The position numbers and the translations under genes are program-made. The notes under the pieces are model-generated. The model saw only the letters and a list, made by a program, of their open reading frames with translations. It was not told the DNA's origin and searched no databases. Shown one piece after another: positions 1,128 through 53,195 of a stretch of DNA of 64,000 nucleotides (position 1 is the first letter of the stretch; every line of letters begins with the position of its first letter). The stretch lies in the NCBI GenBank assembly GCA_903822975.1, contig CAIJRD010000011.1:1-64000 (forward strand), in the 5' to 3' direction. This stretch comes from an uncultured Sinobacteraceae bacterium. GTDB lineage: Bacteria > Pseudomonadota > Gammaproteobacteria > Nevskiales > Nevskiaceae.

Positions 1128-1166
1128 GCGTTTGTGTGAGGCGTTTGTGTGAGGCGTTTGTGTGAA
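1128..1166. repeat. 13-bp tandem repeat (3 copies) in the sdhA-sdhB spacer
   Basis: Three consecutive 13-base units of GCGTTTGTGTGAG occur, the last ending in A instead of G. They lie inside the operon spacer between sdhA and sdhB. The same kind of array, with other sequences, occurs in many spacers of this window. Confidence 0.9.
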
Positions 1167-1172
1167 TGGACA

Positions 1173-1188
1173 GCGCCACGGATGGCGC
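1173..1188 (-). repeat. Hairpin with ATCCGT loop downstream of sdhA
   Basis: On the minus strand the arms GCGCC and GGCGC enclose the loop ATCCGT, about 20 bases after the sdhA stop. The loop matches the hairpin at 10422-10445. There is no T-run, so it is not a classical terminator; it may belong to a dispersed hairpin family or protect the mRNA 3' end. Confidence 0.6.
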
Positions 1189-1205
1189 CGTCGTTGACAC
1201 CGACG

Positions 1206-3017
1206 TTAATAAGTCCGCTTCTTCGGCGGAACGACCTCTGCATCGCTGTCGAGCGTGTACATGTGCACCGGCCGGTAGTCGAGCTTCACTTCGGTTTCGG
1301 CGGTGCGCCAGGCCATCGTGTGCTTCATCCAGTTGGTGTCGTCGCGCTCGGGGAAATCCTCGTGCGCATGCGCGCCGCGCGATTCCTTGCGGTTCTGCGC
1401 GCCGGCCATCGTCAGCAGCGCCTGGCCCAGCAGATTGTCGAGTTCCAGCGTTTCGATCAGATCCGAATTCCAGATCAACGAGTGGTCAGCGACTTTGACG
1501 TCATTGAACAGCTTGATGTCTTCTTTCAGTTTGATCATGCCCTCGTCGAGCGACTTGGTGGTGCGGAACACCGCGGCGTGCGCCTGCATGGTCTTCTGCA
1601 TTGCCAGTCGGATCTTCGCGGTCGACGTGCTGCCTTTTGCGTAGCGCAGATGGTCGAGACGCGCAAGCGCCTTGTCTTCCGATTCGGTCGATATGGTCTT
1701 GTGCTTGACGCCCGGCTTCAGCGTCTCAGCGCAACGCAGACCCGCAGCGCGGCCGAACACGACGAGGTCGAGCAGCGAGTTCGAGCCAAGACGGTTGGCG
1801 CCGTGCACCGACACGCAGGCCGCTTCGCCGACGGCCATCAGGCCCGGAATTACGGTGTCGGTCTTGCCGTCGAGGCAGGTGACGACTTCGCCGTGGAAAT
1901 TGCAGGGAATGCCGCCCATGTTGTAGTGCACCGTCGGCAGCACTGGGATCGGTTCCTTGGTGACGTCGACGTTGGCGAAGATCTTCGCCGTTTCGGAAAT
2001 ACCCGGCAGGCGCTTGTGCAGGACTTCGGGGCCGAGGTGCTGCAGGTTCAGATGGATGTGATCTTTTTCAGGGCCCACACCGCGGCCTTCACGAATTTCG
2101 ATCGTCATCGAGCGGCTGACGACGTCGCGCGAGGCGAGGTCCTTCGCGTTCGGCGCGTAACGCTCCATGAAGCGCTCGCCCTTGGAGTTGGTGAGGTACC
2201 CACCCTCGCCGCGCGAGCCTTCGGTGATCAGACAGCCCGAGCCATAGATGCCGGTCGGATGGAACTGCACGAATTCCATGTCCTGCATCGGAATCCCGGC
2301 ACGAATCGCCATGCCGCCGCCGTCGCCCGTGCAGGTATGCGCGGAGGTGGCCGAGAAGTACGCGCGACCATAACCGCCGGTCGCGAGGATCACTTTGTGC
2401 GCACGGAAGCGATGCAGTTCGCCGGTGGACTGATCCAGCGCCAGCACGCCGTGGATGCTGCCGTCACTGTCGGTCAGCAAATCGAGTGCAAAGAATTCGA
2501 TGAAGAACTCGGCGCGCGCCTTCAGCGCCTGCTGATACATCGTGTGCAGCATGGCGTGACCGGTGCGGTCGGCGGCAGCACAGGTGCGCTGCGCGGCGGG
2601 ACCACCAAAGCGCGTGGTCATGCCGCCGAACGGACGCTGGTAGATCTTGCCTTCCGGGGTGCGCGAGAACGGCACGCCCCAGTGTTCGAGTTCGATGATC
2701 GCCGGAATCGCTTCGCGCACCATGTACTGAATCGCGTCCTGGTCACCGAGCCAATCGGAGCCTTTGACGGTGTCGTACATGTGCCAGCGCCAATCGTCCT
2801 CGCCCATGTTGCCGAGCGCGGCGGAAATGCCGCCTTGTGCGGCGACCGTGTGCGAGCGCGTCGGGAATACCTTGGTGATGTTGGCGGTCTTCAGACCCGA
2901 CTGGGCCAGGCCGACCGTCGCGCGCAAACCTGCGCCGCCGGCACCGACGACGACGACGTCGTACTCGTGATGGATGATCTTGTAGGCAGACGACGCCGAG
3001 GGACTGGCGGTGCTCAT
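1206..3017 (-). CDS. sdhA: Succinate dehydrogenase flavoprotein subunit SdhA
   Basis: This is the catalytic subunit of complex II, oxidising succinate to fumarate with covalently bound FAD. The 603-residue protein has the dinucleotide-binding motif [10 protein letters not shown] (21-30) and the FAD-linking histidine in SHTVAAQGG (H56). The substrate-site motif [15 protein letters not shown] and the GEGGYL segment are also visible. The ATG at 3017 follows GGAG and starts at the usual family N-terminus; a longer open frame upstream runs into sdhD and is rejected. Together with SdhB, SdhC and SdhD it links the TCA cycle to the respiratory chain. Confidence 0.98.
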
Positions 3018-3019
3018 TG

Positions 3020-3403
3020 TTACGGCGCTCCGAATGCAATCTTGAGGACGGCAAAGATGCTCGCCGCAGCGAGCGCGAAATGCGCGAGTTTGACCAGCGC
3101 GATGCCACCAATCTTCAGCGCTTCGTTGCCGACGTAATCTTCGATCACGACCTGCACGCCGAGTGCCGAGTGATAGAAGCCGGCGATGAAGAACAGCACC
3201 AGGGTGACGGCGACCAGCGGCGCATGCACCCAGGCCATCATGGTCGGGTAGTCGGCGACGTGGTAGCGCGCGATGCTGAACACGAACCACAGCGCCAGCG
3301 GAATCAGTGCAAGCGCCGACAGGCGCTGCATCCACCAGTGACCGACTCCTTCTTTGGCCGATCCCAGCCCGCGGGCCTGGGACAGCGGTGAGCGCAGACT
3401 CAT
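3020..3403 (-). CDS. sdhD: Succinate dehydrogenase membrane anchor SdhD
   Basis: This 127-residue hydrophobic subunit anchors complex II and contributes to the quinone and haem site. Three membrane segments are visible, roughly residues 28-46, 55-78 and 98-120. The N-terminal [18 protein letters not shown] segment is typical of the family. AGGAG lies just upstream of the ATG at 3403. Only two bases separate its stop from the sdhA start, suggesting translational coupling. Identification rests on the membrane pattern, the WMQRLSA motif and position in the operon. Confidence 0.93.
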
Positions 3404-3468
3404 TGACGACTCCTTAAGCGTTCGACGACTGGGTCGAGGACGCGACCGATGAATTGATGACTGAAGAA

Positions 3469-3888: not shown

Positions 3889-3934
3889 GCTTACCGCTCC
3901 TGAATGATGGTCGTGTTATTGGCGAAATGCGCGC

Positions 3935-4129: not shown

Positions 4130-4246
4130 AGCGTCGGTCTGAGATCCCAATTGTGACAAACTTCGCGCAATTCCCGCAATGTTTGGAGTGCTTCCATCGA
4201 ACTGCTTACCCCTGCTGCTCCGTCGCCCGCAGCGCACGCCGCGTGG

Positions 4247-5263: not shown

Positions 5264-5636
5264 AGCGGAAATTTCGAGCCGCGCGCACCTACCCCGTTTC
5301 GTTCAGCTCACCGGTCAACGCGCTTGCCTGTGCCCGCACATCGGTCAACCTCGCTTTGAGCGGCTTGCTCGAAATCCTTGGCGCGGGTTCGCACCTATTT
5401 ATCTGAACGGGTGCCGAGCACAGACACACGCCAAACCGACGGACCCGAACCGATCGATCCGACCCTCCCAAGCGAGTACCGGCGCAACACCCATTGAACG
5501 CGCAGAAACGCCTCAGCGACATCGTTGCGACGTCGCAGCGACGTCACGGCGACGTCGTAGAAACGCTATAGAGACATCGTAGCGACGTACACTCCACTCG
5601 CGCTCCAGTCTGCAACTGCAAAGGCGAGGTTTACGG
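5264..5636. other. Gene-free spacer between ygfZ and the P450 gene
   Basis: No credible gene is present. The right part carries a tandem array of 11-base units (listed separately), and the last 40 bases hold the leader of the P450 gene. I see no terminator with a T-run. Confidence 0.6.
5527..5592. repeat. 11-bp degenerate tandem array (6 units)
   Basis: Six consecutive 11-base units begin at 5527, 5538, 5549, 5560, 5571 and 5582. The first three and the last begin GCGACGT; the fourth and fifth are diverged (GAAACG, GAGACAT). The period equals about one DNA helical turn. The array ends about 45 bases upstream of the P450 start. Confidence 0.75.
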
Positions 5637-6989: not shown

Positions 6990-7157
6990 TACGGGACAGC
7001 AAGGTCGAACCGTCACAGAGACGAGGGCCGGGCACCGCGATCGTTAGACTAATAGTGAATATCAAACGCACTTAATATTATTTTTAAATGCAGTTCGGCA
7101 TTGGCATCCTGAAGCCCTGGTTATTTCGTCACGTCTATAACTTTTAGGGGATCCACG

Positions 7158-8165: not shown

Positions 8166-8220
8166 GCGCGCCAACCGACATCAATCGAACATCGCGGCAG
8201 CATAAACTTCAGGCTTTCAC

Positions 8221-8246
8221 CGGCGCCCGGCTTTGACCGGGCGCCG
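8221..8246 (+). terminator. Strong hairpin between the two sulfate-binding protein genes
   Basis: Perfect 10-base arms CGGCGCCCGG and CCGGGCGCCG flank a six-base loop between the two binding-protein genes. The T-tract is poor (TCTCGTT). It could be a leaky terminator, or a processing or stabilising stem that raises the amount of the upstream binding protein relative to downstream permease genes. Confidence 0.6.
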
Positions 8247-8277: not shown

Positions 8278-9324
8278 ATGACCTTATTTCGACCGCAGCC
8301 CTCCTCTCGCTTTCCGGCAGCACGCCGCGCGTGGCCGGCGATCATCGGCATCGCCGCGGCCGTGCTCGCCTTGCCTGCGAACGCAGCCGAACTGCTGAAC
8401 GCGTCTTATGACGTCGCCCGCAGTCTGTACCAGGATCTGAACCCTGCGTTCGTCGCCGAGTGGAGCAAGTCGCACAAGGGTGAAACCTTGCAGATCGATC
8501 AATCGCACGGCGGCTCCAGCAAGCAGGCGCGCGCGGTGATCGACGGCCTCGAAGCGGATGTGGTCTCGATGAATAACCCGCTCGACATCGACGCCGTCGC
8601 CAAAGCCGGTCTGCTGCCGGCCGACTGGCAATCGCGGCTGCCGAACCACAGCAGTCCGTCCTGGTCGGCGATTCTGTTTATCGTGCGCAAGGGCAATCCC
8701 AAGGGCATCCACGACTGGGACGATCTGATCAAGCCCGGCGTACAAGTCATCGTTCCGAATCCGAAAACCTCCGGCAACGGCCGCTACAGCTATCTCGCCG
8801 CGTGGCAGTACGCGCGCAGCAAGGCCAATGGCAGCGACGACGCGGCCCTCGCCTTCGAAAAGAAATTGTTCGGCAACGTACCGGTGCTGGATACCGGCGG
8901 CCGTGGCGCAACCACCACGTTTGCGCAACGCGGACTCGGCGACGTGCTGCTCACGTTCGAAAACGAAGTCGGCCTGATTCGCAGCGAATTCGGCGCCGAC
9001 CAGTTCGAAGTAGTGGTGCCGTCACTGACCGTGCGCGCCGACAACCCGATCGCACGCGTCGACAAGCTTGCTGCCAAGAAGGGCAACACCGAACTCGCAC
9101 AGGCCTACCTGCAGTTCCACTACACACCGGCCGCGCAGGAAATCTTCGCGCACAACGGCCTGCGTCCGATCGACGAGAAGGTACTCAAGGCGCACGCAGC
9201 CGAGTTTCCCGCACTGAAGCTGTTCGATGTCGATCAGGCGTTTGGTGGCTGGACTAAGGCACAAGCCGAGCACTTCGCAGACGGCGGCAGCTTCGATCGC
9301 GTCATCGCCGGCGTCCAGCACTGA
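8278..9324 (+). CDS. Periplasmic sulfate-binding protein (second copy)
   Basis: This 348-residue precursor is paralogous to the preceding gene. It shares [55 protein letters not shown] and RGATTTFAQRGLGDVLLTFENE. The signal peptide has a hydrophobic core near residues 20-35 ending in ANA. The ATG at 8278 is preferred because it gives a normal signal peptide; a GTG-type start at 8233 would add 15 residues. It lies 21 bases before cysT. The two binding proteins may differ in preference (sulfate versus thiosulfate), but the sequence alone does not show this. Confidence 0.94.
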   Translation: MTLFRPQPSSRFPAARRAWPAIIGIAAAVLALPANAAELLNASYDVARSLYQDLNPAFVAEWSKSHKGETLQIDQSHGGSSKQARAVIDGLEADVVSMNNPLDIDAVAKAGLLPADWQSRLPNHSSPSWSAILFIVRKGNPKGIHDWDDLIKPGVQVIVPNPKTSGNGRYSYLAAWQYARSKANGSDDAALAFEKKLFGNVPVLDTGGRGATTTFAQRGLGDVLLTFENEVGLIRSEFGADQFEVVVPSLTVRADNPIARVDKLAAKKGNTELAQAYLQFHYTPAAQEIFAHNGLRPIDEKVLKAHAAEFPALKLFDVDQAFGGWTKAQAEHFADGGSFDRVIAGVQH

Positions 9325-14653: not shown

Positions 14654-15236
14654 CGATCATCCTTGAGCGAGGCGTGCGCGAAAGAGCGCCACACGAAGCT
14701 GCATGCTAAAGGCTCGTGACCAGGACTTCACGCAGTCGCGTGCGGGCGTAAGGGTCTGCCGAGATTTAATACCCGCGGTTTGCGATGCCAGCGGCTCTGA
14801 ATATCGCGAGAAACCTATGCGAGCAGATGCGTCGGTTCGCGAGTTCGCTTCTCAGCCAGCAAAGCATTGCGCCGATCAACCGCTTCTGTACTTCGGCCCT
14901 TTGGATTTGAATGGCGGGCTGCATCATGGCCAGTGCGTTGCTGCGAACGCGGTCAGGCTTGGCACTGGCGTCCCCCGGCAACCTGCGATGGTTCGCGCGA
15001 TGATTTGAGCGATCGTGCGAACATTACGAATCTGCGGTTGCGCGAACTGCCGTGCAGCAACGCGAATCGACTTGATCCAAACCGACTACGCACCGACTAG
15101 CGCGCGCGTGGCTTGTCGCGCTGTTCCAAACACGGTCCAGCGCGCGAACCGATTCGCGCACCGACTCGCGCACCGATTTGCCCGGTCTGCTTGAAAGGCC
15201 GGTCCGGCAACGTCATATCAGTGGCAAGGAGACATC
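14654..15236. other. 583-base gene-free spacer
   Basis: No open frame here resembles a protein. A 12-base array at 15144-15179 consists of three units beginning GCG(A/C)ACCGA. The last ten bases hold a strong ribosome-binding site (AAGGAGA) for the downstream monooxygenase gene. The divergent promoters for clcA and the monooxygenase must lie here but cannot be placed with confidence. Confidence 0.55.
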
Positions 15237-16268
15237 ATGAACTCAGCAACTGCGGTGCCGTTTTCAATTCTCGACTTGTCGCCGGTGCCGCAAGGCGCCA
15301 CGCCGGCGCAGGCGCTGCGCAATACGCTGGATCTGGCGCAGCACGCAGAAAGCTGGGGCTTCAATCGCTTCTGGGTAGCCGAACATCACAACATGAGCGG
15401 CATCGCCAGCGCGGCCACCTCGGTGGTGATCGGCTACATCGCCGCCGGCACGCACAGCATTCGCGTCGGCGCGGGCGGCGTGATGCTGCCGAACCATGCG
15501 CCGCTGGTGATCGCCGAACAATTCGGCACGCTCGAATCGCTCTATCCGGGACGCATCGATCTCGGTCTGGGTCGCGCGCCCGGCACCGACCAGCTGACTG
15601 CGCGCGCACTGCGCCGGGAGAACATCGCCAGCGCCGACCGCTTCCCGCAGGACGTGATGGAACTGCGCCGTTACTTTGGCGAGCTCGAACCCGGCCAAGC
15701 CGTGCGCGCGGTGCCCGGTGCGGGCCTGCATGTGCCGCTATGGCTACTCGGCTCAAGCACCTTCAGTGCGCAGCTGGCGGCCGCGCTCGGTCTGCCGTTT
15801 GCGTTCGCCTCGCATTTCGCACCGGCCGACATGGAAGCCGCACTCTCGCTGTATCGCAGCCAGTTCAAGCCTTCAGACGTGCTGCAACAGCCTTACGTGA
15901 TGCTGTCGCTGAACGTGTTCGCCGCCGACGAAGATCTCGAAGCGATCTATCTGTCGAGTTCGCTGCAACAGCAGTTCCTCAACCTGATCCGCGGCCGTCC
16001 TGGTCAGGTGCCGCCACCGGTGACCTCGATGGAAGGACGCTGGAGCGATGCCGAGCAGCATCATGTGCATCAGGCGCTGCGATGCTCGGTGGTCGGCTCG
16101 CGTGCGACCGTGCAGCGCGGCATCGCCGCCTTCCTCGAACGCCATCGTCCGAACGAACTGTTGGTGACCGGCTTGATGTACGACCACGTCGCGCGCCTGC
16201 ACTCCTACGAAATCGTCGCGCAGGTGCGCGAGAGCTTGCAGCGCGAAGCAGCACTAGCAACCGCGTAG
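15237..16268 (+). CDS. Luciferase-like flavin-dependent monooxygenase
   Basis: This 343-residue single-domain TIM-barrel protein of the LLM superfamily resembles E. coli YhbW. Signatures include [12 protein letters not shown] at the N-terminus, [42 protein letters not shown] and the glycine-rich [13 protein letters not shown], which binds the FMN phosphate. The ATG at 15237 follows AAGGAGA. It probably needs reduced flavin from a reductase; the convergent nitroreductase-family gene next to it is a possible but unproven partner. The substrate is unknown. Confidence 0.92.
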
Positions 16269-16925: not shown

Positions 16926-17371
16926 CTGCGGAGAACTCCTGGACAATCGTGATGGATGCGTTGTGGCCGATCGGCGCGCATGCGATCGATCGAGTTGTGG
17001 CCGATCGGCGCTGATGCGTTCGATCGATCGGAAAGCGTCAAAAAGTTATTCGGTTGCGATCGAAGCACCAACGGCGCTGCGTTCAACTTCCCTGTTTTAT
17101 TTTTACATTCGCCCCACACCTTCGATTTGCTCAATCGGCCCGAGCGATCGATGCGCGTAAACGGTTTGCGTGTTTTGTGTGCTTGATCAGTGTGCTTGAT
17201 CAGTGTGCTTCAGCGGTGTGCTCGTGATCGGCGTGCTTGAGCGGTCCGCGAATTTCACCTGCCCGCTCGCTTGTTCTCTCGCTCGGACGCAATCGGGTTC
17301 GGATTCGGATTCGGATTCGCGCAACGATCTGCGAATACAAGAGAGCACACTGTGGCGAGTTTTACAGCAGC
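16926..17371. other. Gene-free spacer with several short repeats
   Basis: An 18-base direct repeat, GTTGTGGCCGATCGGCGC, occurs at 16960-16977 and 16994-17011, followed in both cases by GATCGATCG. A 13-base array occupies 17179-17230 (listed separately). A run of the hexamer GGATTC lies near 17300-17318. No gene is supported. The middle part, about 17040-17110, is AT-rich and may hold a promoter. Confidence 0.55.
17179..17230. repeat. 13-bp degenerate tandem array
   Basis: Four 13-base units start at 17179, 17192, 17205 and 17218, all beginning GTGCT; the first two are identical (GTGCTTGATCAGT). A looser 15-base copy follows to about 17245. The constant left half and drifting right half match the pattern of other spacer arrays here. 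Confidence 0.8.
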
Positions 17372-17851: not shown

Positions 17852-18191
17852 GCGAAGGCTCCGTGGCTTCAAGACCTGCCGCATTATCCGCCAGTGCGGC
17901 GGCAGCGGCGCGAAGCGGTGGGATGCGCATGAATGGGAGCGCTCGTTTCGCTCGTTCGATGGGAACGCTGGTCTCGCTCGTTTCGGCTTCTGCCAATCGC
18001 GAACCAGGATGCGTCGCGGGCGAACCGAACACGTAATCCGTGCCGAACGCATGGCGCGGACGAACGGGACAACGCCAATCGCGCAGCATCGGTTGAGCGG
18101 GTGAACCGGCCGGGCCGAGCTTCCGCGCCCGCTTGGTGCGGGCATGACGCTGTTATCCTTCGCACTCTCCTTCCCGCTTTCGCTTTGTGCA
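17852..18191. other. 340-base spacer upstream of dapE
   Basis: A 26-base direct repeat occurs twice, at 17933-17958 and 17959-17984, both starting ATGGGA. A hairpin with arms GCCCGC and GCGGGC lies at 18127-18143, about 50 bases before dapE. No gene is supported. Confidence 0.5.
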
Positions 18192-19380: not shown

Positions 19381-20400
19381 ATGTACGACGATCGCGCACT
19401 CACGATAGAACCCTTCCAGCCGCCGTGGAGCCTGCGCAGCCCCGGCTTGCAGTCGCTGCTGGCGACCAAGGGGCCGACGCGGCGCATCTGGCGAAGTCGC
19501 GGGCTGGTGCTCGATCCACTCTCGCGCGATCACATTCTCGACTGCGGCAACGGCGTGCGTCTGACCGGATGCCATACGCCAGCGCCCACCGCGCGTGCGC
19601 GCGGCCTGGTGGTGCTGATTCACGGTTGGGAAGGTGGCCATTACAGCAACTACCTGTACTCGCTCGCCTGCGCGCTGCACCGCGCCGGCTACGCCACGTT
19701 CCGGCTCAACCTGCGCGACCATGCCGATTCGCACGCGCTGAACGAAGACATGTTCCATTCCGCGCGCATCGCCGAAGTGCTCGATGCGATCCACGCGGTT
19801 CAGCGCTTCGAACCGGCGCGCCCGCTCAGCGTGGTGGGCTTCTCGCTCGGCGGCAACTTCGCGCTGCGCGTCGGCCTGCACGGACCGGCGGCCGGTCTCG
19901 AACCGCGGCTGTGCATGGGCATCTCGCCGGTGGTCGTGCCCGGCAATACTTTGATCGCGCTGGATCAAGGTCCGGCGGTCTATCACCGTTACTTTCGCCG
20001 GAAATGGCATCAGACCATGGGCAAGAAAGCGACGGCCTGGCCGGGGCGCTACGACTTCAGCCAATTGCGTCAATTGAAAAGCTTCACCGCGATCACGCGG
20101 GCGTTCGTGGAAGCACATACCGAATTCGCAACGCTCGAAGACTATCTCTCGGCTTACACCTTGACGCCGGAGCTGCTGATGGCCTCGCCCACACCGCTGG
20201 CGATCATCACCGCACACGACGACAGCGTGATCCCGATCGCCGATTTCGAAGGCCTGCGCGAAGCCGGCAGCATGGTGTCGTTTCAGGCGACTGCGCACGG
20301 CGGGCACTGCGGTTTCATCGAGAACTGGAAGCTCGACAGCTGGGCCGAAGCGCAAGTGCTGCGACTGCTCACGCTGCATGCCGACGCGCGCCAGGCATGA
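19381..20400 (+). CDS. YheT-like alpha/beta hydrolase
   Basis: The 339-residue protein has a cap-less alpha/beta hydrolase fold. Visible features are the oxyanion-hole motif LIHGWEGG, the nucleophile elbow GFSLGGN (S155), the acid in TAHDDSVIP and the histidine in AHGGHCGF. The layout matches the YheT/UPF0017 group of putative esterases. The ATG at 19381 lies 28 bases after dapE, so the two may be cotranscribed. The substrate is unknown. Confidence 0.88.
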   Translation: MYDDRALTIEPFQPPWSLRSPGLQSLLATKGPTRRIWRSRGLVLDPLSRDHILDCGNGVRLTGCHTPAPTARARGLVVLIHGWEGGHYSNYLYSLACALHRAGYATFRLNLRDHADSHALNEDMFHSARIAEVLDAIHAVQRFEPARPLSVVGFSLGGNFALRVGLHGPAAGLEPRLCMGISPVVVPGNTLIALDQGPAVYHRYFRRKWHQTMGKKATAWPGRYDFSQLRQLKSFTAITRAFVEAHTEFATLEDYLSAYTLTPELLMASPTPLAIITAHDDSVIPIADFEGLREAGSMVSFQATAHGGHCGFIENWKLDSWAEAQVLRLLTLHADARQA

Positions 20401-20557
20401 ATCGCATCGAGCCGCACGTGAATCTCGTCGCCCTGCGCATGAACGCGCATGCGCAGTGCAGCTCGCATATTGAGCTGTGCAGAAAGTTCGTCGAGCCGCG
20501 CATAGCGTTGGCCCAGACCTGCGCGTGTTTGGCTCAGCAAAACGAGCACGCCGCACG

Positions 20558-21076: not shown

Positions 21077-21628
21077 CCGCGCCAAGAGTTCTGTCGATTC
21101 GCATGCGATTGCGGCATGCGGTTTTGCGGATCGACCTTGGCAAGAAGCGTTCGAACAGATCGGCCACGATGAATCGGCCGCGTCTCGAACCGGACAATAA
21201 CGATCCCAGAATCAATCGCAGAAACGAATGCAGAAACGAATGCAGAAGCGAACGCAGAAAACTCCGCAGAAACGAACCGTGCCCAATGATCGCGCCGCCC
21301 ACTGAGCAAGCTTGGAAGTCACCCCGTAGTGCGGCGATGCGTGGCTTCGAAGCATTCTGTGAAAGCCTGCCGCCAGCGCCTTCAAAGCCCTGTACAGTAG
21401 TGTCAAATAATCGGGGTTTGGGCTGCGGTTTTTCGTTTTTCGGGGCTTCTAAGTGCAAGGTTCCAAGCAAGCTCGGGGGCAGCTCGCCGCTCGCATGACT
21501 GCGACGGCCTCCTTCGTTTCTGAACGTCAGTGGCGCGCGGTCTATACGCCCAGAACAAGACTGGCTGTTGGGCAAATGGCACAGATCGTCGATTCGGCGA
21601 ATCACATCGTCGCGGCACTGGCTCGGCC
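21077..21628. other. 552-base spacer before the FlgO/TPR gene
   Basis: No supported gene. It contains a five-unit 12-base array at 21218-21277. Several long open frames exist on both strands, but they are low-complexity translations of the array. Confidence 0.5.
21218..21277. repeat. 12-bp tandem array (5 units)
   Basis: Five consecutive 12-base units start at 21218, 21230, 21242, 21254 and 21266. All begin GCAGAA. Units 1 and 2 are identical (GCAGAAACGAAT); the others differ at one to five positions. Confidence 0.85.
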
Positions 21629-31836: not shown

Positions 31837-32165
31837 CGCAGCGCCGCTGCAGCGTGTTTCTGGCGCGGCCGGTCGCCTGGACCATGTTCTGCTTTATTAC
31901 GCCGCTTGTCGCGCTACTGCCTACGTAGCAATCGCGAGCGGCAGCGCTTGCGAGGCAGAATCGCTCAGGACTTATCGAGCGTTCCCGTCACTCGGGGATT
32001 TTCGAGCATTCCCATCACTCGGATTTATCGAGCGATCTCATCGCTCAGGGATTGTCGAGCGATCCCGTCACTCGGGGATTTTCGAGCGTTCCCATCACTC
32101 GGGAATTATCGAGCGATCCCATCGCTCGCTGCGCGCCTTCGCCGGCGCGCAGCTTCAAGCCGCCA
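31837..32165. repeat. 27-bp tandem array in a convergent spacer
   Basis: The array proper runs from 31976 to about 32130 with units starting at 31976, 32003, 32029, 32056, 32083 and 32110. Each begins CGAGC and continues with (G/A)(A/T)T(C/T)(C/T)C(A/G)TC(A/G)CTC. Units 3 and 6 contain arms GAGCGA and TCGCTC around five bases and can form stem-loops; other units have decayed arms. A looser unit may precede at 31951. The array separates two convergent genes. Because 27 is a multiple of three, several frames stay open through it, but none is a believable gene. Confidence 0.85.
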
Positions 32166-37940: not shown

Positions 37941-39431
37941 ATGAACGTCCAATTTATGACTCAAGCCAAGAATGAACCGCGACTGCAGACGACGCGTCGA
38001 CGGGTGACTACCGCACTCGCGGCGATGCTGGTCGCCAGCCTCGCCGCCTGCGCCGTCGGTCCCGACTATCAGGCGCCGCAAACGGCACCGGTGACGCTAC
38101 ACAACGTCGACAGCACGCAGGTCGTGGCGTCGAGCTACGAGGCGCGCTGGTGGACCCAGTTCGGCGATGCCACGCTCGACACGCTGATTGCGCGCGCGGC
38201 GGCCGGCAATCTCGATCTGAAGCAGGCGCAGGCACGCGTCGCCGCGGCACGCGCCGCAGTCGGCGAAGCGCACTCGGATCTGTTGCCGACCATCAACACC
38301 GACGCCAGCTACACGCGCAGCCGCCTGGAGCAGCCGGGCTTCACCGATCAGCGCGTCGGCATCAGCGAGTACAAGGGTGGCTTCGACGCCAGCTGGGAAC
38401 TCGATGTGTTCGGCGGCATTCGACGTTCGGTTGAATCCGCGCGCGCGCAGTCGCAGGCCAGTGTCGAGAACCTGCGCGACGCGCAGGTGCGCGTGATCGC
38501 GGAAGTCGCGCGCAACTACTTCGAGCTGCGCGGCACGCAGCTGCGGCTCGATATCGCCTCGCGCGATCTGGATACGCAGTATCAGACGCTGAAACTCACA
38601 CAGGTGCGTCGCGACATCGGCAGCGGTCTGGACCAGGACGTTGCCAGCGCCGCCGCGCGCCTGGCGACGACGCAAGCACAGATTCCGCTGCTGGTGGCCG
38701 CCGAGGATCGCTCCAAGTACCGCCTCGCGGTGCTGCTCGGCGTACGGCCGGGCGAACTCGATATCGACCTGTCGTCGAAGTCGTTCAGCCCCCTGAGTCA
38801 TGCCCTCGCAATCGGCGCACCGGGCGATGTGCTGGCGCGGCGACCGGACGTTCGCGCCGCCGAACGTCGACTGGCGTCGGCGACGGCCAATATCGGCATC
38901 GCGCAGGCGGACTTCTATCCGCACGTCGAAGTCGGCGGCTTCATCGGCTTTCTGTCGGGCAGCAGCGCGGACATCGGCAGCGTCGCCTCGCATGGCTTCT
39001 CGATCGGGCCGAGCATCAGCTGGAACGGCCTGAATTACGAACGCGTCGCCTCACGTCTGCACGAGCGCAAGGCCGACGCCGACGGCGCCCTCGCCGACTA
39101 TCACCAGACCGTGCTGCTGGCGCTTGAGGATGTGGAGGGCTCGCTGAGCAGCTTCAACCAGCAGCGGCTGCGGACCGATCACGTCATCGAGGAAGCTCAA
39201 CAGAGTCGGCGTGCCGCCGACCTCGCCGGAATCCGCTACCGCGAAGGCGCCACCGACTTCCTCACGCTACTCGATGCGCAGCGCACCGCGCTGGCCGCCG
39301 AGGATGATCTTGCTCAAGCCGAGACAGCGATCAACACCAGCGCAATCGCCGTCTACAAAGCGCTCGGTGGCGGCTGGGAAGCCTGCGGAGATCAGGAATG
39401 CAGCCAGCTTGCCGCCGCCGGCGCGCCGTAG
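37941..39431 (+). CDS. Outer-membrane efflux lipoprotein, OprN/NodT type
   Basis: This 496-residue TolC-family channel has a lipobox-like ASLAAC (C37) after a hydrophobic stretch, then CAVGPDYQAP, the canonical start of mature OprM/NodT proteins. Two outer-membrane efflux repeats follow (about 70-260 and 270-480), including WELDVFGGIRRSVESARAQ and YREGATDFLTLLDAQRT. It completes the tripartite pump. The start at 37941 follows GAGAG; an internal ATG five codons later is also possible. Confidence 0.93.
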   Translation: MNVQFMTQAKNEPRLQTTRRRVTTALAAMLVASLAACAVGPDYQAPQTAPVTLHNVDSTQVVASSYEARWWTQFGDATLDTLIARAAAGNLDLKQAQARVAAARAAVGEAHSDLLPTINTDASYTRSRLEQPGFTDQRVGISEYKGGFDASWELDVFGGIRRSVESARAQSQASVENLRDAQVRVIAEVARNYFELRGTQLRLDIASRDLDTQYQTLKLTQVRRDIGSGLDQDVASAAARLATTQAQIPLLVAAEDRSKYRLAVLLGVRPGELDIDLSSKSFSPLSHALAIGAPGDVLARRPDVRAAERRLASATANIGIAQADFYPHVEVGGFIGFLSGSSADIGSVASHGFSIGPSISWNGLNYERVASRLHERKADADGALADYHQTVLLALEDVEGSLSSFNQQRLRTDHVIEEAQQSRRAADLAGIRYREGATDFLTLLDAQRTALAAEDDLAQAETAINTSAIAVYKALGGGWEACGDQECSQLAAAGAP

Positions 39432-39778
39432 GCCGGCACGGAACCATCGCGGCGGCAGCCTTGCGCGCCGCCGCAGGTTTGACCTTGGCGCCGTTGCTGC
39501 GCGGCATCGCGCGCATCGCACTGCCGTTTGAAACATCTGCGGCAGCCGACGACGTGGACTTGCCGCAAGTGCGCGCTACGGCGGTCGTCACGGCGGCGGG
39601 TCGGTCGTACAGCTCGCAACTGCGCATGCGGGCACCATCGACACGCGTCGCGAACGCGCATTCGTCGGACAGTGCTGGTATCGCTCGCGCTGCGGCGCTA
39701 GATTCGCGCCTCTCGATTGCGGTTGTGGCGGTGGGCGTGCTGGGCAGCAGCCTCGTCATCGCCGCGCAAGGATTGCTG

Positions 39779-40771: not shown

Positions 40772-40817
40772 GGCAGGCCGAGCGGACATACGGTGCGAAA
40801 GTGCGGCGCGGAAATTC

Positions 40818-40908
40818 GCTGCGGAACTGTGCTGCGGAAACACGCTACGGAACTACGCTGCGGACTTGCGCTGCGGAGACACGCTGCGGATTTATGCTGC
40901 GGAACTGA
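40818..40908. repeat. 13-bp tandem array (7 units)
   Basis: Seven consecutive 13-base units start at 40818, 40831, 40844, 40857, 40870, 40883 and 40896. Each begins GCTGCGGA (one has GCTACGGA), followed by five variable bases. It lies between the convergent DedA-rhodanese and metal-exporter genes, inside a 279-base gene-free spacer. Confidence 0.9.
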
Positions 40909-41050: not shown

Positions 41051-42277
41051 TCAAGCAGCCGCTAGCGCCGCAGCACCGACGTAGAACAAATAGCAGCCGA
41101 GCACGATGATCAAAGCGCTCGAAACATAGGGCGCGCGACGCAACCACACTCCCAGGCCCGACCAGCGCTGCATCACCTTGGAGCCCAGTCCGCGCGCGCC
41201 GAGTGCCGCCAGCGTGCCGACCGATACCATGGTCAATGCCAGACCGAGACTGAAGGCCAGCACCAGACCGACGCCGAGTGCGAACTGCTTCAGCTGCAGG
41301 CACAACACCAGCACCGTGATCGACGCCGGGCACGGAATCAAACCGCCGGTGAGCCCGAAGACGATGATCTGACCCGTGGTGACCTGACGGTCGCCAAAAC
41401 GGCGGCGAATGTCCTCCGCGTGCTCGCGCTCGTGCGCATCCTGAAACTCGATTGCGGAACTGGTCGCCACCTCGAAGCTGAGCCCCGCCGACAGCGGCGC
41501 CGAGCGTATCAGCGGCGCCAGTGCCGACGCGCGTAAGGGTGCGTGCGGATGCGAATGCCTGTGGTCATGCGCATGCGCGTGATCGTGATCGTGATCGTGA
41601 TCGTGATCGTGATCGTGATCGTGATCGTGCGCATCCTGAAACGCCAACGCAGAACTTGCCGCCACCTCGAAACTGAGTCCCGGCGACAGCGGCGCCGGGC
41701 GTATCAGTGGCGCCAGTGCCGACGCGCGTAAGGGTGCGTGCGGATGCGAATGCCTGTGGTCGTGCGCATGCACGTGGTCGTGATCGTGATCGTGATCGTG
41801 ATCGTGAGTATGTGTGTGATTCTGATCGCGCGCATGTGCATGCGCGTGACCGTGACCGTGATCGTCTCCATGCGCATGCGGTGCGTGCGCATGTCCCAGC
41901 GCGTGCGCGCGCGCATGTTCGCGCTCCTGCAGATGCTCCTGCCGTGTGCGCCAGAGCATCCACAACGCCACCGCAATCACGATCGCGCCCGACAGCATCT
42001 GCAAGTAGGGTTCGATGTGTTCGAGGTCCCAGCGATTGCCGAAGTAAAGGCCGGTCAAGGCCACCGCCCATACCACCGCAGTGTGCGAGACCGTGGCGGA
42101 CAATCCGAGCAGCACCGCCTGCGACACGTTGCCGCGAATCGCGATGATGAAGGCCGCCATCATCGTCTTCGAGTGGCCGGGTTCGAGACCATGCAGTGCT
42201 CCGAGCAGCACCGCGCTCGGCAGATACAGCCAGGCATTGGCAGCACCGTGCTGCAGCAGCTCATTGAGCGGCGTCAT
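41051..42277 (-). CDS. RcnA-like nickel/cobalt exporter with expanded His-rich loop
   Basis: This 408-residue polytopic protein of the NicO/RcnA group has the motif HGLEPGHSKTMMAAF near the N-terminus, about six membrane helices and GLTGGLIPCPASITVLVLC. The cytosolic loop between the first and second helix groups (about 115-275) is extremely rich in His and Asp (long HD runs, HSHPH). It contains a 65-residue internal tandem duplication, so the loop is far longer than in E. coli RcnA. It probably exports Ni or Co across the inner membrane, with the loop binding metal. A CsoR-family regulator gene lies just upstream on the same strand. Confidence 0.93.
   Translation of the reverse strand: MTPLNELLQHGAANAWLYLPSAVLLGALHGLEPGHSKTMMAAFIIAIRGNVSQAVLLGLSATVSHTAVVWAVALTGLYFGNRWDLEHIEPYLQMLSGAIVIAVALWMLWRTRQEHLQEREHARAHALGHAHAPHAHGDDHGHGHAHAHARDQNHTHTHDHDHDHDHDHVHAHDHRHSHPHAPLRASALAPLIRPAPLSPGLSFEVAASSALAFQDAHDHDHDHDHDHDHDHDHAHAHDHRHSHPHAPLRASALAPLIRSAPLSAGLSFEVATSSAIEFQDAHEREHAEDIRRRFGDRQVTTGQIIVFGLTGGLIPCPASITVLVLCLQLKQFALGVGLVLAFSLGLALTMVSVGTLAALGARGLGSKVMQRWSGLGVWLRRAPYVSSALIIVLGCYLFYVGAAALAAA
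41436..41825. repeat. 195-bp tandem duplication with GATCGT hexamer runs inside the exporter gene
   Basis: The segment at about 41436-41630 is repeated at about 41631-41825 with a 195-base period (for example GTGCCGACGCGCGTAAGGGT at 41521 and 41716). Within it are runs of GATCGT: eight perfect copies at 41581-41628 and about four near 41783-41806. On the coding strand these encode His-Asp repeats. All changes are multiples of three bases. Confidence 0.92.
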
Positions 42278-43946: not shown

Positions 43947-44648
43947 TACCGCCCCCGGTTGGAGACTGAAGCCGACGATCGAAGCGGCCTCCTCGCGCGG
44001 CGGCGCCATCGCTGGGCCAGCGTCGGGCCATGGTCTGGCAAGCGACGGGCAAGCGCGCCACGTCCACGTAACAGCTCCGAGCCGGCAACTGCTAGCACCG
44101 TGCGAGCAGCGCACACTGCAACGGCCTGCAGCGCTGCTTTCGCGCAGCTTTCAACGCATCGCGGCGCGCTTGGGCATGCTTCGGTTTCCAGGCGCCGAGG
44201 CGGCGGCAAAATTTGTCGATAGGCCGTTTCACGAATTGAATGGCGCCCTACACCCGATCACCGGGATGCATTACGAGAAGTCGACTCTCTTCTCAGCGAG
44301 CGTCTTTGATGCACTGCAACAGCTGTAGAGGAATCGGCGCGCGCTTGCGGATGTCGTCGCTCGAACGGCGTCTGGATCGATACCGGCTGCGGAGATTGAT
44401 GAGGCGCGCGTCGTTGAACCCGGCCATTCGCTTAGGCGTCGAATGATTCATGCAAACCTCGACCGAAGTGGTGTGGCGTGATGGCACTTACGTCCACCGC
44501 GCGCCCGGTGTGATCCTGCGAACGCCTGCGATTGCCCGGCGCCCATCAGGCGCCAAGCGCGCTCGAACAGGAGCGGCCGCGCACTCACGCAATCGATCTT
44601 AAAGCCATTAGAATCACGCCCTTTACGCCTATTTGGAGCCCAGCACGG
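43947..44648. other. 702-base spacer without a supported gene
   Basis: This is the longest gap in the window. The only open frame with natural-looking composition is a 50-codon frame at 44176-44328 (ending SVFDALQQL). It lacks a ribosome-binding site and may be a gene remnant. No terminator or repeat array was found. The final 60 bases contain ATTAGAATCAC, a possible -10 region for the esterase gene. Confidence 0.45.
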
Positions 44649-45518
44649 ATGCGCGCGTTAAGTTCGACGCAACGGGACATGAGTTTCTTTTTGCCGGGTG
44701 GCGATACCGGCGTGCTGCTGATCCACGGCCTCACCGGCACGCCCGTGGAGATGCGCTATGTCGGCAAAGGCCTTGCCCGCGCCGGCCACACCGTCTACGG
44801 CGCGCAGCTCGCCGGCCACTGCGGCACTGAACAAGACCTCGCTGCAACCGGTTGGCAGGACTGGGCCGCAAGCGCACTCGAAGCGCTCGATTTTCTGCGT
44901 GGCCGGGTCCGTCGCGTTTTCGTCGGCGGCCTTTCGATGGGCGCGATCATGGCACTGCACTTGGCCGCACAACGCAGGGAACAGGTCGATGGTCTGCTGC
45001 TCTACGGCCCGACCCTGAAGTACGACGGCTGGACCATTCCCTGGTACAGCTTTCTGCTGAAATTCCTGATCTACACACCGATCGGAAAACGCTACACGTT
45101 CATGGAGAAGCATCCTTACGGGATCAAGGATGAACGCCTGCGCAAACGCGTGGTGCAGAACATGCTCTCCGGCAACAGCGCCGATGCCGGGCTCGCAGGC
45201 CTGCCCTCGTTCTGCCTGAAGCAGATGTGGGCCTTGTCGGCGCAGGTCGAGCGCGAGCTGCCGCTGATCAAGGCGCCCAGCCTGATCCTGCATGCACGCG
45301 AAGATGACGTCGCCAGCCTGAAGAATCCGATCAAGATTCTGCGTGGCGTCAGCGGACCGGCCGAATTGTCCCTGCTCAACGACAGCTATCACATGATCAC
45401 GGTCGATCGTGAACGCGACCAAGTGGTCGCGCGCAGCCTGCAGCACATCGAGCGAATCGCCGGGCCGGTCGAGCGCTCCCCAATGCGTAGCACGGCACCG
45501 GCGCTGGAAGATGCCTGA
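44649..45518 (+). CDS. Carboxylesterase-type alpha/beta hydrolase
   Basis: This 289-residue serine hydrolase has the oxyanion motif LLIHGLTGTP, nucleophile elbow GGLSMG (S96), acid in LHAREDDVAS and His in NDSYHMITVDRERD. The layout matches the Est30-like/monoacylglycerol-lipase-like carboxylesterases of COG1647. The lid region contains GWTIPWYSFLLKFLIYTPIGKRY, a hydrophobic membrane-contacting segment. The ATG at 44649 is used; upstream in-frame sequence is not conserved-looking. Confidence 0.88.
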   Translation: MRALSSTQRDMSFFLPGGDTGVLLIHGLTGTPVEMRYVGKGLARAGHTVYGAQLAGHCGTEQDLAATGWQDWAASALEALDFLRGRVRRVFVGGLSMGAIMALHLAAQRREQVDGLLLYGPTLKYDGWTIPWYSFLLKFLIYTPIGKRYTFMEKHPYGIKDERLRKRVVQNMLSGNSADAGLAGLPSFCLKQMWALSAQVERELPLIKAPSLILHAREDDVASLKNPIKILRGVSGPAELSLLNDSYHMITVDRERDQVVARSLQHIERIAGPVERSPMRSTAPALEDA

Positions 45519-45690
45519 GCAGCGCTCGGGGGACGCCCGATCGTTCACCAGGCGTCGTCGCTAATGTCGCCGTTGTCGTCACCGTCGTCCGCGATGTGCG
45601 ACCTCGCTGGTGATGTCGGATCGCTCCTCAACCGTCGTCGCCGACGTCATCAGGTGCCGCCTCGCCGGCCGAATCCTCCGCGCGAGACAT

Positions 45691-45725
45691 AAAAAAAACC
45701 GCCGGACGCGCAAAGCGTCCGGCGG
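45691..45725 (-). terminator. Intrinsic terminator of fructose-bisphosphate aldolase
   Basis: The arms are CCGCCGGACG (45699-45708) and CGTCCGGCGG (45716-45725), a perfect 10-base GC-rich stem with a seven-base loop. On the minus strand it is followed by eight Ts (45698-45691). It lies 22 bases after the aldolase stop. This is the clearest rho-independent terminator in the window. Confidence 0.95.
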
Positions 45726-45747
45726 CTTGTGTGACCCACCAGCGTGT

Positions 45748-50049: not shown

Positions 50050-50059
50050 GGCGTGCGAT

Positions 50060-51292: not shown

Positions 51293-51320
51293 CAGCACCA
51301 CCACTCCCCGATAGTCCGCT

Positions 51321-51935
51321 CTATTGGCCCGCTTCCAGTGCGCCCGTGCGCAGCGCCGACAAAATGAATTCGACCATCAGTGCCGCCTGTCGCCCGTGAT
51401 CGTCGACAAAGCGCTCGGCGACAATCTGCGGGTGGCAGAACGGAATCACTGCATTGAAGACACAGTGACCGCGCGCCTCCAGATCGGCCTTGGCGAACTC
51501 GCCGTTGCGCATGCCGTCGGCGACGATCTCCTGGAAAATGGCGCGCATCCGATTGCAGTGCGCGTCGATCACGCTCCACTGCTCGGCCATCGCCTTGGCG
51601 CATATTTCATGCACTTTCGACTCTTGCAGATATTGTTCGAGCGTCAGTGCATGGCACTCCACCACCATCTTGCGCAGCCGCTCGGAAGCCGGCCGCCGCT
51701 CACGCGCAATGTTGTGGGCGAAGCCCTCCATGCGCTGCAGAATCACCTCGGTCAGGGCCTCGTAGATGCCCGACTTGCTCTCAAAGAACCGATAGACGTT
51801 GGCCGGCGACATCTCGCAGGCAGCGGCGATGTCGGCCACCGTGGTCTTGGCATAGCCGTAGGCGCGAAACAGCCGCTCGGCTTCGACCAGGATACGGTCG
51901 CGCATATGCGGCTGGCGGGTCGATGCATCTCTCAT
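51321..51935 (-). CDS. TetR-family regulator of the second efflux operon
   Basis: This 204-residue protein has the TetR helix-turn-helix TVADIAAACEMSPANVYRFFESKSGIYEAL (about 30-60) and a C-terminal ligand domain typical of the AcrR/efflux group. It is cotranscribed with the adaptor and pump (28-base gap). A perfect operator lies one base upstream of its start codon, so it probably represses the entire operon including itself. Confidence 0.92.
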   Translation of the reverse strand: MRDASTRQPHMRDRILVEAERLFRAYGYAKTTVADIAAACEMSPANVYRFFESKSGIYEALTEVILQRMEGFAHNIARERRPASERLRKMVVECHALTLEQYLQESKVHEICAKAMAEQWSVIDAHCNRMRAIFQEIVADGMRNGEFAKADLEARGHCVFNAVIPFCHPQIVAERFVDDHGRQAALMVEFILSALRTGALEAGQ

Positions 51936-51936
51936 G

Positions 51937-51958
51937 TGACGAATATCATCATTCGTCA
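51937..51958. promoter_or_regulatory. Perfect TetR-type operator
   Basis: Arms TGACGAAT (51937-51944) and ATTCGTCA (51951-51958) are separated by ATCATC, giving a 22-base inverted repeat directly before the regulator ATG. Its size and symmetry fit a TetR dimer site. Binding would block transcription or translation start of the tetR-MFP-RND operon. Confidence 0.8.
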
Positions 51959-52108
51959 GCGTGGAGTCAAGTGGCTCCGCCGGTCAGCCAAAAAGTCGAT
52001 GGTCAAATTGCTCCGGTGCCTGACGCCCTTAGCTTGCGGCTTCGGAACAAAATCGCCCGATCTTCCGTGGCAGCTTGAATCCAGATTCACGAATCAGGTG
52101 CGTCCGCT

Positions 52109-53146
52109 ATGGAAGTCACAGTCGATCCGTCTCTGCTCGTCAATTTTGTTCCGCTCAATGCCCTGCATCGCGAAAGCCAACGCACTTTGGCGCGGCGTTC
52201 ACCGGTCCTGCGATTCGATCGCGGTACGCAAGTGCCGCGCGCGCGTGGCAACAGCGATCACCTGTTTCTGATTTCAGGAAGCGTCCGGATCGGCGGCGAG
52301 GACGACCAAGCGGCAGCGGCGATCGGAGCTGGCACTGCAGACGCCGCACGTGCGCTCCCGCGCGATCACGAGCTTCACTGCCTGACATCGATCGAGATGC
52401 TGACCGTCGACCCCGGTCTGCTCGACGTTCTGCTGACCTGGGATCAGCAGAACGGCGCACTGACGCTCGACAGCGTCGAGCCTGGCACAGCCGCGGGCGA
52501 CGACGACTGGATGATCCGCCTGCTGCAGACCCATCTGTTCCAGCAACTGCCGGCGGCAAACCTGCAGTCGGTATTTTTTCGCATGCGCGAAATGGAGGTC
52601 GCAGCTGGCCAGTTGATCGTGCGCCAGGGCGCACCCGGCGATGACTTCTTCATGATCAAGAGCGGGCGCTGCATGATCACGCGCGAAGTCGCCGGGCGAC
52701 CGCCGATCCGGCTGGCGGAATTCGAAAGCGGCGCCTGCTTCGGCGAAGAGTCGCTGCTATCGAATGCCCCGCGCAATGCCAACGTCACCATGTTGACGTC
52801 CGGACGATTGATGCGACTGGCCAAACACGATTTCCGCGAACTGATGGTCGCACCGGTGCTGCGCGAACTCGACTGGCAGACCGCCAAGCAACAGGTCGAA
52901 TCCGGTCGCGCACGCTGGCTCGACGTGCGCGTCTCCAGCGAAAGCCGCCATAACACCTTGGAAAATTGCCTGAATCTGCCGCTGCACCTGTTACGGTTGC
53001 GGATCGAAATGCTGGACCCTTCGATGCGTTATATCGCGGTGTGCGATACGGGTCGTCGCAGTTCGGTTGCCGCGTTCATCCTTGCGCAGAAGGGCTTCGA
53101 CGCCTGCCTGTTGCGTGGCGGATTGAACGCCGCCGCATCGCCTTAG
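52109..53146 (+). CDS. Cyclic-nucleotide-binding / rhodanese fusion protein
   Basis: The 345-residue protein has a degenerate N-terminal cNMP-binding-like domain (about 10-115), a better conserved second one (about 137-250) with the phosphate-binding cassette FGEESLLSNAPRNANV (R222 and A224 present), and a C-terminal rhodanese domain (about 255-345) with active-site loop VCDTGRRSS (C312). No helix-turn-helix follows, so it is not a Crp-type regulator. A sulfurtransferase controlled by a cyclic nucleotide is an attractive but unproven reading. Confidence 0.88.
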   Translation: MEVTVDPSLLVNFVPLNALHRESQRTLARRSPVLRFDRGTQVPRARGNSDHLFLISGSVRIGGEDDQAAAAIGAGTADAARALPRDHELHCLTSIEMLTVDPGLLDVLLTWDQQNGALTLDSVEPGTAAGDDDWMIRLLQTHLFQQLPAANLQSVFFRMREMEVAAGQLIVRQGAPGDDFFMIKSGRCMITREVAGRPPIRLAEFESGACFGEESLLSNAPRNANVTMLTSGRLMRLAKHDFRELMVAPVLRELDWQTAKQQVESGRARWLDVRVSSESRHNTLENCLNLPLHLLRLRIEMLDPSMRYIAVCDTGRRSSVAAFILAQKGFDACLLRGGLNAAASP

Positions 53147-53195
53147 CCTGATTGAGCCTGACTGAGCCTGACTGAGCCTGACTGAGCCTGATTGA
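53146..53195. repeat. 10-bp tandem array (5 units)
   Basis: Units at 53146, 53156, 53166, 53176 and 53186 are GCCTGA(C/T)TGA. The array begins on the last base of the stop codon of the cNMP/rhodanese gene. It lies in the convergent spacer before pilZ. Confidence 0.92.

Follow-up and report, generated by a model that had tools for sequence, protein, structure and literature searches.

The 64,000-nucleotide stretch analysed here, the first part of contig CAIJRD010000011.1 from an uncultured Sinobacteraceae bacterium (hereafter the window), carries many short tandem arrays between its genes, and these are probably lineage-specific intergenic minisatellites, each of which arose in place by local duplication, slippage and drift. 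The arrays are real and beyond chance: the 37 intergenic segments of the window (8,534 bp) hold 11 arrays scoring at least 50, and dinucleotide shuffles give 0.11 (mean of 100, summed over period classes), a count that covers segments starting after the first 250 bases and treats some hand-added frames as coding. Their abundance further suggests that short tandem duplications are made or retained in this lineage at several times the frequency seen in its relatives.

Arrays of the window and their units

All nine arrays listed in the initial annotation are present, with true limits shifted by a few to about 35 bases, and all nine are intergenic according to a codon-usage gene caller, which was used throughout in place of annotation. 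Limits were taken from TRF and the flanking genes from Pfam matches. A 13-bp unit is repeated 2.9 times with 100% match at 1128-1165, between sdhB (259-1044, minus strand) and sdhA (1206-3017, minus strand). Two arrays lie 5′ of plus-strand genes, namely about eight drifting 11-bp units at 5503-5590 (5514-5557 in TRF, extended in the unit view) before a cytochrome P450 gene (5637-6989), and three 12-bp units at 15143-15178 before a luciferase-like monooxygenase gene (15237-16268). The spacer between a nitroreductase gene and a DUF2721 gene contains about five 13-bp units (17177-17245; TRF and unit view), the divergent spacer between DUF2721 (minus) and an M20 peptidase (plus) 1.9 copies of a 26-bp unit (17933-17982; TRF and alignment), and that separating GNAT and TPR protein genes a 12/24-bp array (21199-21277). 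The remaining three occupy convergent spacers: a 27/80-bp array at 31960-32128 between a thioesterase (plus) and a TetR gene (minus), about 9.5 copies of a 13-bp unit at 40783-40907 between VTT/rhodanese (plus) and NicO (minus) genes, where the unit view displays a constant core and a variable centre, and 5.2 copies of a 10-bp unit at 53145-53196, touching a stop codon, between cNMP-binding/rhodanese (plus) and PilZ (minus) genes. Arrays absent from the initial list include a 34-bp duplication at 16960-17027 (two copies, 91%; TRF) and a 17-bp unit present 1.9 times at 8212-8245, upstream of a called plus-strand gene ending at 9324; TRF also reports a weak 11-bp array (3.8 copies, score 42) in a long spacer at 44014-44055. 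The window additionally starts with a palindromic intergenic 114-bp repeat of the REP/BIME-like sort, and when a 20-kb part of it was compared with plasmids by megablast, the best 20 matches all fell in conserved efflux genes.

The arrays do not share the narrow design originally ascribed to them. Units had been described as 10-13 bp long, while a primitive period of 10-13 bp is found in just 36 of 91 arrays from spacers of the genome; periods there range from 6 to 50 bp, and from 4 to 35 bp in a fresh sample, with a mode of 12 and a typical array length of about 50 bp. A unit length set by the helical turn is likewise not borne out, the periods actually spanning 4-50 bp. The pattern of a constant first half followed by a drifting rest fails as a general rule, with variable columns clustered as in permuted columns (z 0.09 for the 47 of 94 arrays testable by a period of at least 8, at least three copies, little gapping and some variation; z −0.37 for 16 of 30 fresh arrays). 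Clustering at P<0.05, uncorrected, is seen in 4 of the 47, among them three arrays of the window, at 17177 (P 0.032), 21199 (P<0.002) and 40809 (P 0.006), which account for the first impression. Overall, 72 of 94 arrays match below 95%, with the variation distributed across the whole unit, and edge units do not clearly exceed inner ones in divergence (20 vs 17 of 43, P 0.06). Two early associations were dropped on fresh data. TCGA-containing 4- and 5-mers, which had looked enriched about twofold or more, were not significant there (4 occurrences of TCGA vs 2.4 expected), and a correlation of arrays with regional GC that stood at rho 0.52 (P 0.0006) in the initial samples fell to rho 0.11 (P 0.63).

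Probable origin of the arrays in place

The proposal that the arrays stem from a recurrent local process and not from copies of a mobile element is supported by the absence of any dispersed family. When the sampled spacers (30-900 bp) are compared, none of 121 arrays overlaps a dispersed similarity at E 1e-4, and the resemblance of 10-14-bp units from different loci exceeds that of shuffled units slightly at most, in agreement with the original remark that they do not resemble each other. An origin as REP/BIME elements or MITEs requires dispersed copies of one sequence and was thus rejected. Template-directed amplification, which had also been put forward, finds no footing in the form of reverse transcription, since the 93.8% complete assembly has no match to the reverse transcriptase family PF00078 (retron, DGR).

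A direct indication of local origin comes from orthologous spacers in G006, which with G013 makes up the two nearest relatives. In G006 the unit occurs once in the sdhA-sdhB spacer (81 bp), compared with three times here (161-162 bp), and the array at L164:19185-19348 is built around a terminator-like hairpin that is present singly at the corresponding place in G006. Thus at two loci an array here corresponds to a single copy in another species, each species being represented by one genome, and these single-copy seeds therefore argue for duplication in situ followed by slippage and drift. Such a clear seed was recovered in 2 of 10 array spacers tried, the remainder being too diverged or non-syntenic. 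The array at 17933-17982 is missing from the orthologous G006 spacer (interval of 340 bp here vs 123 bp), and the interval around 53145-53196 is 162 bp here and 44 bp in G006. None of the alignable G006 spacers contains an array. Compared with G006, all 7 array-bearing orthologous spacers are longer in this genome (median +159 bp), as are 13 of 19 array-free ones (median +4 bp); against G013, 4 of 5 array-bearing and 3 of 9 array-free spacers are longer here, although the sdhA-sdhB spacer is longer in G013 (618 vs 162 bp).

In the proposed sequence of events, a single-copy stretch of approximately 6-35 bp within a spacer would first be duplicated head to tail, as seen at the two loci and inferred elsewhere. 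Slipped misalignment, promoted by the repeat that now exists, would then expand the duplicate, mostly to 3-10 copies, a step to which copy numbers and higher-order units point. Point changes across the unit would subsequently make the copies drift, as their divergence demonstrates. Arrays would survive where insertions do little harm, which is suggested by the lack of an excess in coding DNA and by convergent spacers being both the richest in arrays and longer.

The arrays themselves are most likely without function. That they are selected elements, such as spaced binding sites or terminator stacks, would fit the L164 array, a tandem stack of terminator-like hairpins, and the constant core around a variable centre at 40783-40907; this reading is nevertheless very unlikely given that there is neither a unit family between loci nor a generally conserved part of the unit, that hairpin-proneness is no greater in arrays than in the remaining spacer DNA, and that the alignable G006 spacers are free of arrays.

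Abundance, convergent spacers and candidate causes

The genome-wide excess predicted by the initial annotation is present. A sample covering 28% of the genome (Nevskia) holds 138 intergenic arrays in 1.25 Mb, and 17 congeners hold 22 in 1.11 Mb. Per intergenic DNA, 101 arrays in 176,323 bp compare with 22 in 138,626 bp of the congeners, a 3.6-fold excess (P 8e-10, treating as independent arrays that are somewhat clumped), and a fresh sample of the genome gave 37 arrays in 79,885 bp. The density is, if anything, understated, because the intergenic totals of this genome include some uncalled genes. G006 and G013 together have one array in 38,294 bp of spacer, and 29 gamma- and betaproteobacterial loci of at least 10,000 bases, from records not titled as MAGs, have 8 in 66,805 bp (0.12/kb). 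Coding DNA displays no excess (45 arrays in 672,688 bp vs 82 in 971,429 bp of the congeners). These counts cover periods up to 60 bp, and a 114-bp and a 195-bp repeat are hence uncounted; extrapolation gives about 500, perhaps several hundred, arrays in the genome. This lineage stands at the high end of a spread and is not alone in having such arrays, with 0.57 arrays per kb here, 0.45 in G015 (7 in 15,720 bp), 0.37 in G009 (4 in 10,950 bp), 0.33 in G005 (3 in 8,965 bp), 0.18 in G017, 0.10 in G002 and 0 in G008.

An assembly artefact, or a lineage difference produced by loss of repeats from the relatives' metagenome assemblies, is extremely improbable. Many congener assemblies are indeed fragmented, G015 and G005, with few contigs (20 and 30), have raised densities, and longer repeats do occur at contig ends in this genome; however, units are diverged in most arrays, the arrays are short, interior stretches (0.52/kb) resemble contig starts (0.57/kb), and the few-contig assemblies G002 (10), G017 (6) and G008 (30) are low, as are the records not titled as MAGs.

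New here is the concentration of the arrays in convergent spacers. Among spacers of up to 900 bp, which hold all but 3 of 94 arrays, the density is 1.38/kb where the flanking genes converge (43 arrays in 31,169 bp), 0.68 where they are co-directional (58 in 84,767 bp) and 0.50 where they diverge (20 in 39,950 bp; P 5e-5), and the bias is reproduced in the fresh data alone (P 0.003). It is absent from the 17 congeners (0.073/kb in convergent spacers, one array) and from the gamma/beta loci (0.168/kb, two arrays). Convergent spacers here are also about 2.5 times as long as those of the nearest relatives, and the visible arrays fall short of explaining all of the lengthening, since array-free convergent spacers have a median of 174 bp here, compared with 85-95 bp for all convergent spacers of the relatives. 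Decayed arrays were rejected as the source of long spacers that lack arrays: of the six expanded spacers that lack an array scoring at least 50, two just beat 20 shuffles (best self-segments of 25 and 26 vs shuffle maxima of 24 and 23). With arrays masked, the 8-mer lag spectrum at lags 6-14 gives 3.4 and 4.5 per 10 kb vs 2.1 and 2.7 in congeners, and at most longer lags it is not above them.

Among possible causes of the initial duplication, the best candidate is a change in how nicked or single-stranded DNA is processed, Ku being found and exonuclease I not found in this genome. In end joining that depends on Ku, the filling and joining of staggered nicks or breaks would leave a head-to-tail copy of the intervening stretch with no prior repeat, and in plants tandem duplications follow paired nicks (Schiml et al. 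2016, as cited in PMC6954433). The Ku gene is complete (TIGR02772, 284 bits; PF02735) and was not found in the nearly array-free G006 and G013, such negatives coming from incomplete assemblies; this genome and G009, both rich in arrays, are alone among nine in having Ku and no detected exonuclease I. Yet G015 is rich in arrays with exonuclease I present and Ku not found, G002 has Ku and few arrays, and the one neighbouring frame tested in the 5 kb around Ku has no NCBIfam match. A specific role of Ku appears unlikely.

Loss of exonuclease I alone might destabilise tandem repeats, as single-strand exonucleases stabilise them in E. coli (PMC3942315, PMC3753628, citing Feschenko et al. 2003), and PF08411 has no match in this genome. 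It has none in G006 and G013 either, despite their near lack of arrays, and xseA too was not found in G006; by itself the loss therefore looks weakened as a sufficient cause and is highly improbable. Loss of mutS, recJ or xseA was rejected, as all three are present here (in G017, mutS went undetected).

Converging transcription could alternatively create topological stress that leads to topoisomerase-linked short tandem duplications and lets convergent spacers acquire arrays faster, in keeping with the convergent bias of this genome and with an E. coli topA mutant described as producing 2-19 bp tandem duplications de novo, independent of existing repeats (PMC6954433). This cause, compatible with the minisatellite model as is end joining, seems quite doubtful. 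Relaxed selection would create the same bias, convergent spacers containing no start sites of flanking genes, and the motifs of TopA are intact as in near relatives. Nothing striking stands out in the TopA sequence: at columns invariant in the other seven genomes it has 5 private changes, compared with 4 in G006 and 8 in G013, and the part of the protein altered in the E. coli mutant was unmatched by the search motif in all eight TopA compared. The combined possibility of a natural tandem-duplication mutator, in which de novo duplications favour converging transcription, possibly through Ku-dependent fill-in and joining without exonuclease I, and account for some 500 minisatellites (extrapolated) and convergent spacers more than twice as long, is conceivable if rather unlikely.

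Comparison with known repeats

Births of tandem repeats from unique sequence are rare and hence hard to study. Perhaps several hundred independent, mostly intergenic arrays, together with near relatives that keep some of the spacers in single-copy form, would constitute a natural catalogue of such births, and testable causes are offered both by the bias towards convergent spacers and by the distribution of Ku and exonuclease I. The case also cautions that short repeats of seemingly common design in one genome do not have to represent an element or a regulatory system.

REP elements constitute a single dispersed family of palindromic intergenic repeats. The arrays here are intergenic like REP/BIME sequences but share no such family; palindromic units have been described in E. 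coli (PMC2884548). Locus-specific tandem repeats have already been published for Bacillus (PMC8161180) and for Borgs (PMC9879509). The constant-length repeats of Bacillus and other Firmicutes resemble the arrays in that their sequence differs between loci and their occurrence is very uneven across species, but as described there they are fixed at 52 or 20-21 nt, in contrast to the broad range of periods found here. The archaeal Borg repeats, according to their report, likewise originate independently at each locus, are genome-specific and virtually absent from host genomes; their units, however, are perfect and about half lie in genes, whereas the units here are mostly imperfect and in excess only between genes. 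The E. coli topA R168C mutator is similar in its short, repeat-independent head-to-tail duplications but is a laboratory allele in the account given (PMC6954433), and the TopA of this genome has no striking features.

The closest match is to bacterial minisatellites or VNTRs (MLVA markers), which similarly consist of head-to-tail, locus-specific units of about 6-50 bp in mostly 2-10 copies. The initial statement that no named element fits thus stands for mobile elements and falls for repeats of this known kind, as the arrays are head-to-tail repeats of more than about 6 bp, occur above chance and are of local origin, with a seed at two loci. What distinguishes them from usual VNTRs, judged from one genome per species, is an intergenic density several-fold above that of relatives and a bias towards convergent spacers.

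Spacer arrays in the window and across the genome

All nine short tandem arrays listed in the initial annotation were recovered by TRF close to where it had placed them, and all lie in intergenic DNA as delimited by our own gene caller. The window spacers (8,534 bp) contain 11 arrays scoring at least 50, compared with a mean of 0.11 in 100 dinucleotide shuffles, and the possibility that the arrays do not exceed composition-matched chance is therefore dismissed. The coding DNA of the window has three arrays at score 50 against approximately one in shuffles. One coding repeat, in contrast to the intergenic arrays, is a 195-bp duplication with a CGTGAT hexamer run (41419-41807) within a NicO nickel/cobalt transporter gene (41051-42277, minus strand). 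Two adjacent 12/24-bp arrays (56522-56620) lie in an MltG-like gene (55354-56814, minus strand), within its N-terminal extension; the family match of this gene begins at residue 181.

The genome (4.46 Mb in 20 contigs, the window being bases 1-64000 of contig C11) was sampled to 28% as contig starts (385 kb), interior stretches (400 kb), the window and a fresh 400-kb replicate, before the analysis of which six predictions were fixed. Counting intergenic arrays with a score of at least 50 and a period of at most 60, the first samples (849 kb, 176,323 bp intergenic) yielded 101 arrays, 13 of these in the window, and the replicate yielded 37 in 79,885 bp of intergenic DNA, a density of 0.46 per kb that upholds the predicted one; shuffled spacers gave 0.006-0.015 per kb. 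The samples thus have about 11 intergenic arrays per 100 kb, which by extrapolation would amount to some 490 genome-wide; counts among stretches are more uneven than Poisson (P = 0.009). One 20-kb stretch, L161 (G000:C2:680001-700000), has a GC content of 53.9% against 62.6% for the whole interior sample and no 30-900 bp spacer between genes called by our codon model, and is probably an acquired island.

The arrays are short (median three copies and 47.5 bp) and imperfect, with a match below 95% in 72 of 94. Primitive periods spanned 6-50 in the first samples and 4-35 in the replicate, 12 being the commonest in both (16 of 91 and 5 of 30, respectively); in the replicate periods 11 and 14 followed with four arrays each and period 13 did not stand out. 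In the intergenic 8-mer lag spectrum, which is independent of TRF, this genome exceeds its congeners over most of the 6-35 range, and peaks stand at 6, 7, 12, 13 and 26. Variable columns do not cluster within the unit, either in 47 arrays (z = 0.09) or in 16 fresh ones (z = -0.37), upholding the earlier result. Pairwise comparison of 42 units of 10-14 bp gave 46 pairs out of 861 with at least 80% identity, compared with 22-29 in three shuffles, and no two units are identical. Dispersed repeats in the sampled DNA overlap none of 121 arrays. A TCGA bias of the units and a link of arrays to GC both failed in the replicate.

Relatives and origin in place

Array density is the highest among the 18 genomes sampled. 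The 17 congeners together have 22 arrays in 138,626 bp of spacer, 3.6-fold below this genome (P = 8e-10 if arrays are independent), and the two nearest, G006 and G013 (98% and 95% sdhB identity), have a single array in 38,294 bp. Intermediate densities in G015 (0.45/kb), G009 (0.37/kb) and G005 (0.33/kb) indicate that the tendency occurs across the genus, this genome standing at the top. Loci surrounding a single conserved gene in gamma- and betaproteobacteria gave 21 arrays in 144,653 bp, and 29 loci from records not titled MAG, one added Solimonas locus included, gave eight in 66,805 bp. Coding DNA shows no excess (0.067/kb against 0.084/kb in congeners by our sums).

Two orthologous spacers reveal arrays arising in place. 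The sdhA/sdhB spacer is 81 bp with one unit copy in G006 and 161 bp with three copies here, and a convergent spacer in an own-genome stretch (L164:19185-19348) carries about five 33-bp units around a terminator-like hairpin, three sites of which pass our scan, where the 114-bp G006 counterpart has one such hairpin. Ten array spacers were tried in all, and in the remaining eight no single-copy seed was discernible. All seven syntenic array spacers are longer than in G006 (median +159 bp), compared with a median difference of +4 bp in 19 without arrays, six of which are much longer here; against G013, four of five with arrays and three of nine without are longer. Five spacers without a score-50 TRF array exceed their G006 counterparts by 160-330 bp (window 20400-20557, 39431-39724 and 45518-45747, and L164:15433-15857 and L170:13115-13326 elsewhere in the genome), and of these L164:15433-15857 alone has a self-segment that slightly exceeds its shuffles (26 vs 23).

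The very start of the contig (window 1-244) carries a 114-bp unit in 2.1 copies containing a 15-base palindrome, which with up to two mismatches has nine strand matches at five window places (0.96 expected) and adjoins sdhB in congener loci L199 and L208 as well. This repeat is REP-like, and at least two congeners carry it at the same position.

Convergent spacers

Arrays are concentrated between convergent genes. In the first samples convergent spacers carried 1.38 arrays per kb, co-directional ones 0.80 and divergent ones 0.53 (P = 0.002-0.003), and the convergent excess was upheld in the replicate (1.39 vs 0.44 and 0.44, P = 0.003), where the order of the latter two classes was not reproduced; pooled, the counts are 43, 58 and 20 (P = 5e-5). 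Convergent spacers show no such bias in congeners (one array in 13,707 bp) or in other gamma/beta loci (two in 11,891 bp). By our gene calls on unpaired spacers, the median convergent spacer is 219 bp, against 95 bp in congeners and 85 bp in G006 and G013 (P = 5e-5 for these two, n = 23 only). Co-directional and divergent medians resemble those of G006 and G013 (155 vs 152 and 275 vs 244 bp) and exceed those of the 17 congeners (110 and 223 bp; P = 4e-5 and 0.004). Even array-free convergent spacers are long (median 174 bp), thus length has also been added by insertions other than visible arrays.

Possible mechanism and known systems

Birth in place at two loci, drift, an excess confined to spacers and an excess in this lineage are observed; growth may proceed via slipped misalignment, and arrays would be tolerated where start sites are not close by. 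Of the gene losses with a recognised effect, that of mutS, recJ or xseA does not account for the arrays, as all three are present. TopA shows no striking change, and no reverse transcriptase match was found in the genome. Exonuclease I (C-terminal family PF08411) has no match in this genome, G006, G013 and G009, possibly a clade-wide loss, and is present in the other five of nine Nevskia-set genomes; such a loss is insufficient alone because G006 and G013 are nearly array-free. Ku, encoded here by a complete gene (289 aa, TIGR02772), was also found in G002 and G009, with no match in the other six, G006 and G013 among them. Only this genome and G009 combine Ku with no detected exonuclease I (0.57 and 0.37 arrays/kb), and G015, at 0.45 arrays/kb, is a clear exception. 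As the nine genomes include several fragmented ones, the pattern may be taken as a lead only.

The finding is real and, read as a burst of minisatellite births peculiar to this lineage and biased to convergent spacers, merits further attention. Our literature search covered bacterial intergenic minisatellites, repeat genesis, constant repeat length and convergent genes with supercoiling. By title and abstract, the open-licence PMC literature yielded no paper on such arrays in Nevskia, and a convergent bias of tandem repeats is unreported in the titles and abstract openings of its best-ranked papers. Minisatellites as a kind of object are already known, and the systems nearest in kind, to judge from the portions of the sources seen, are those of PMC8161180, PMC9879509 and PMC6954433.
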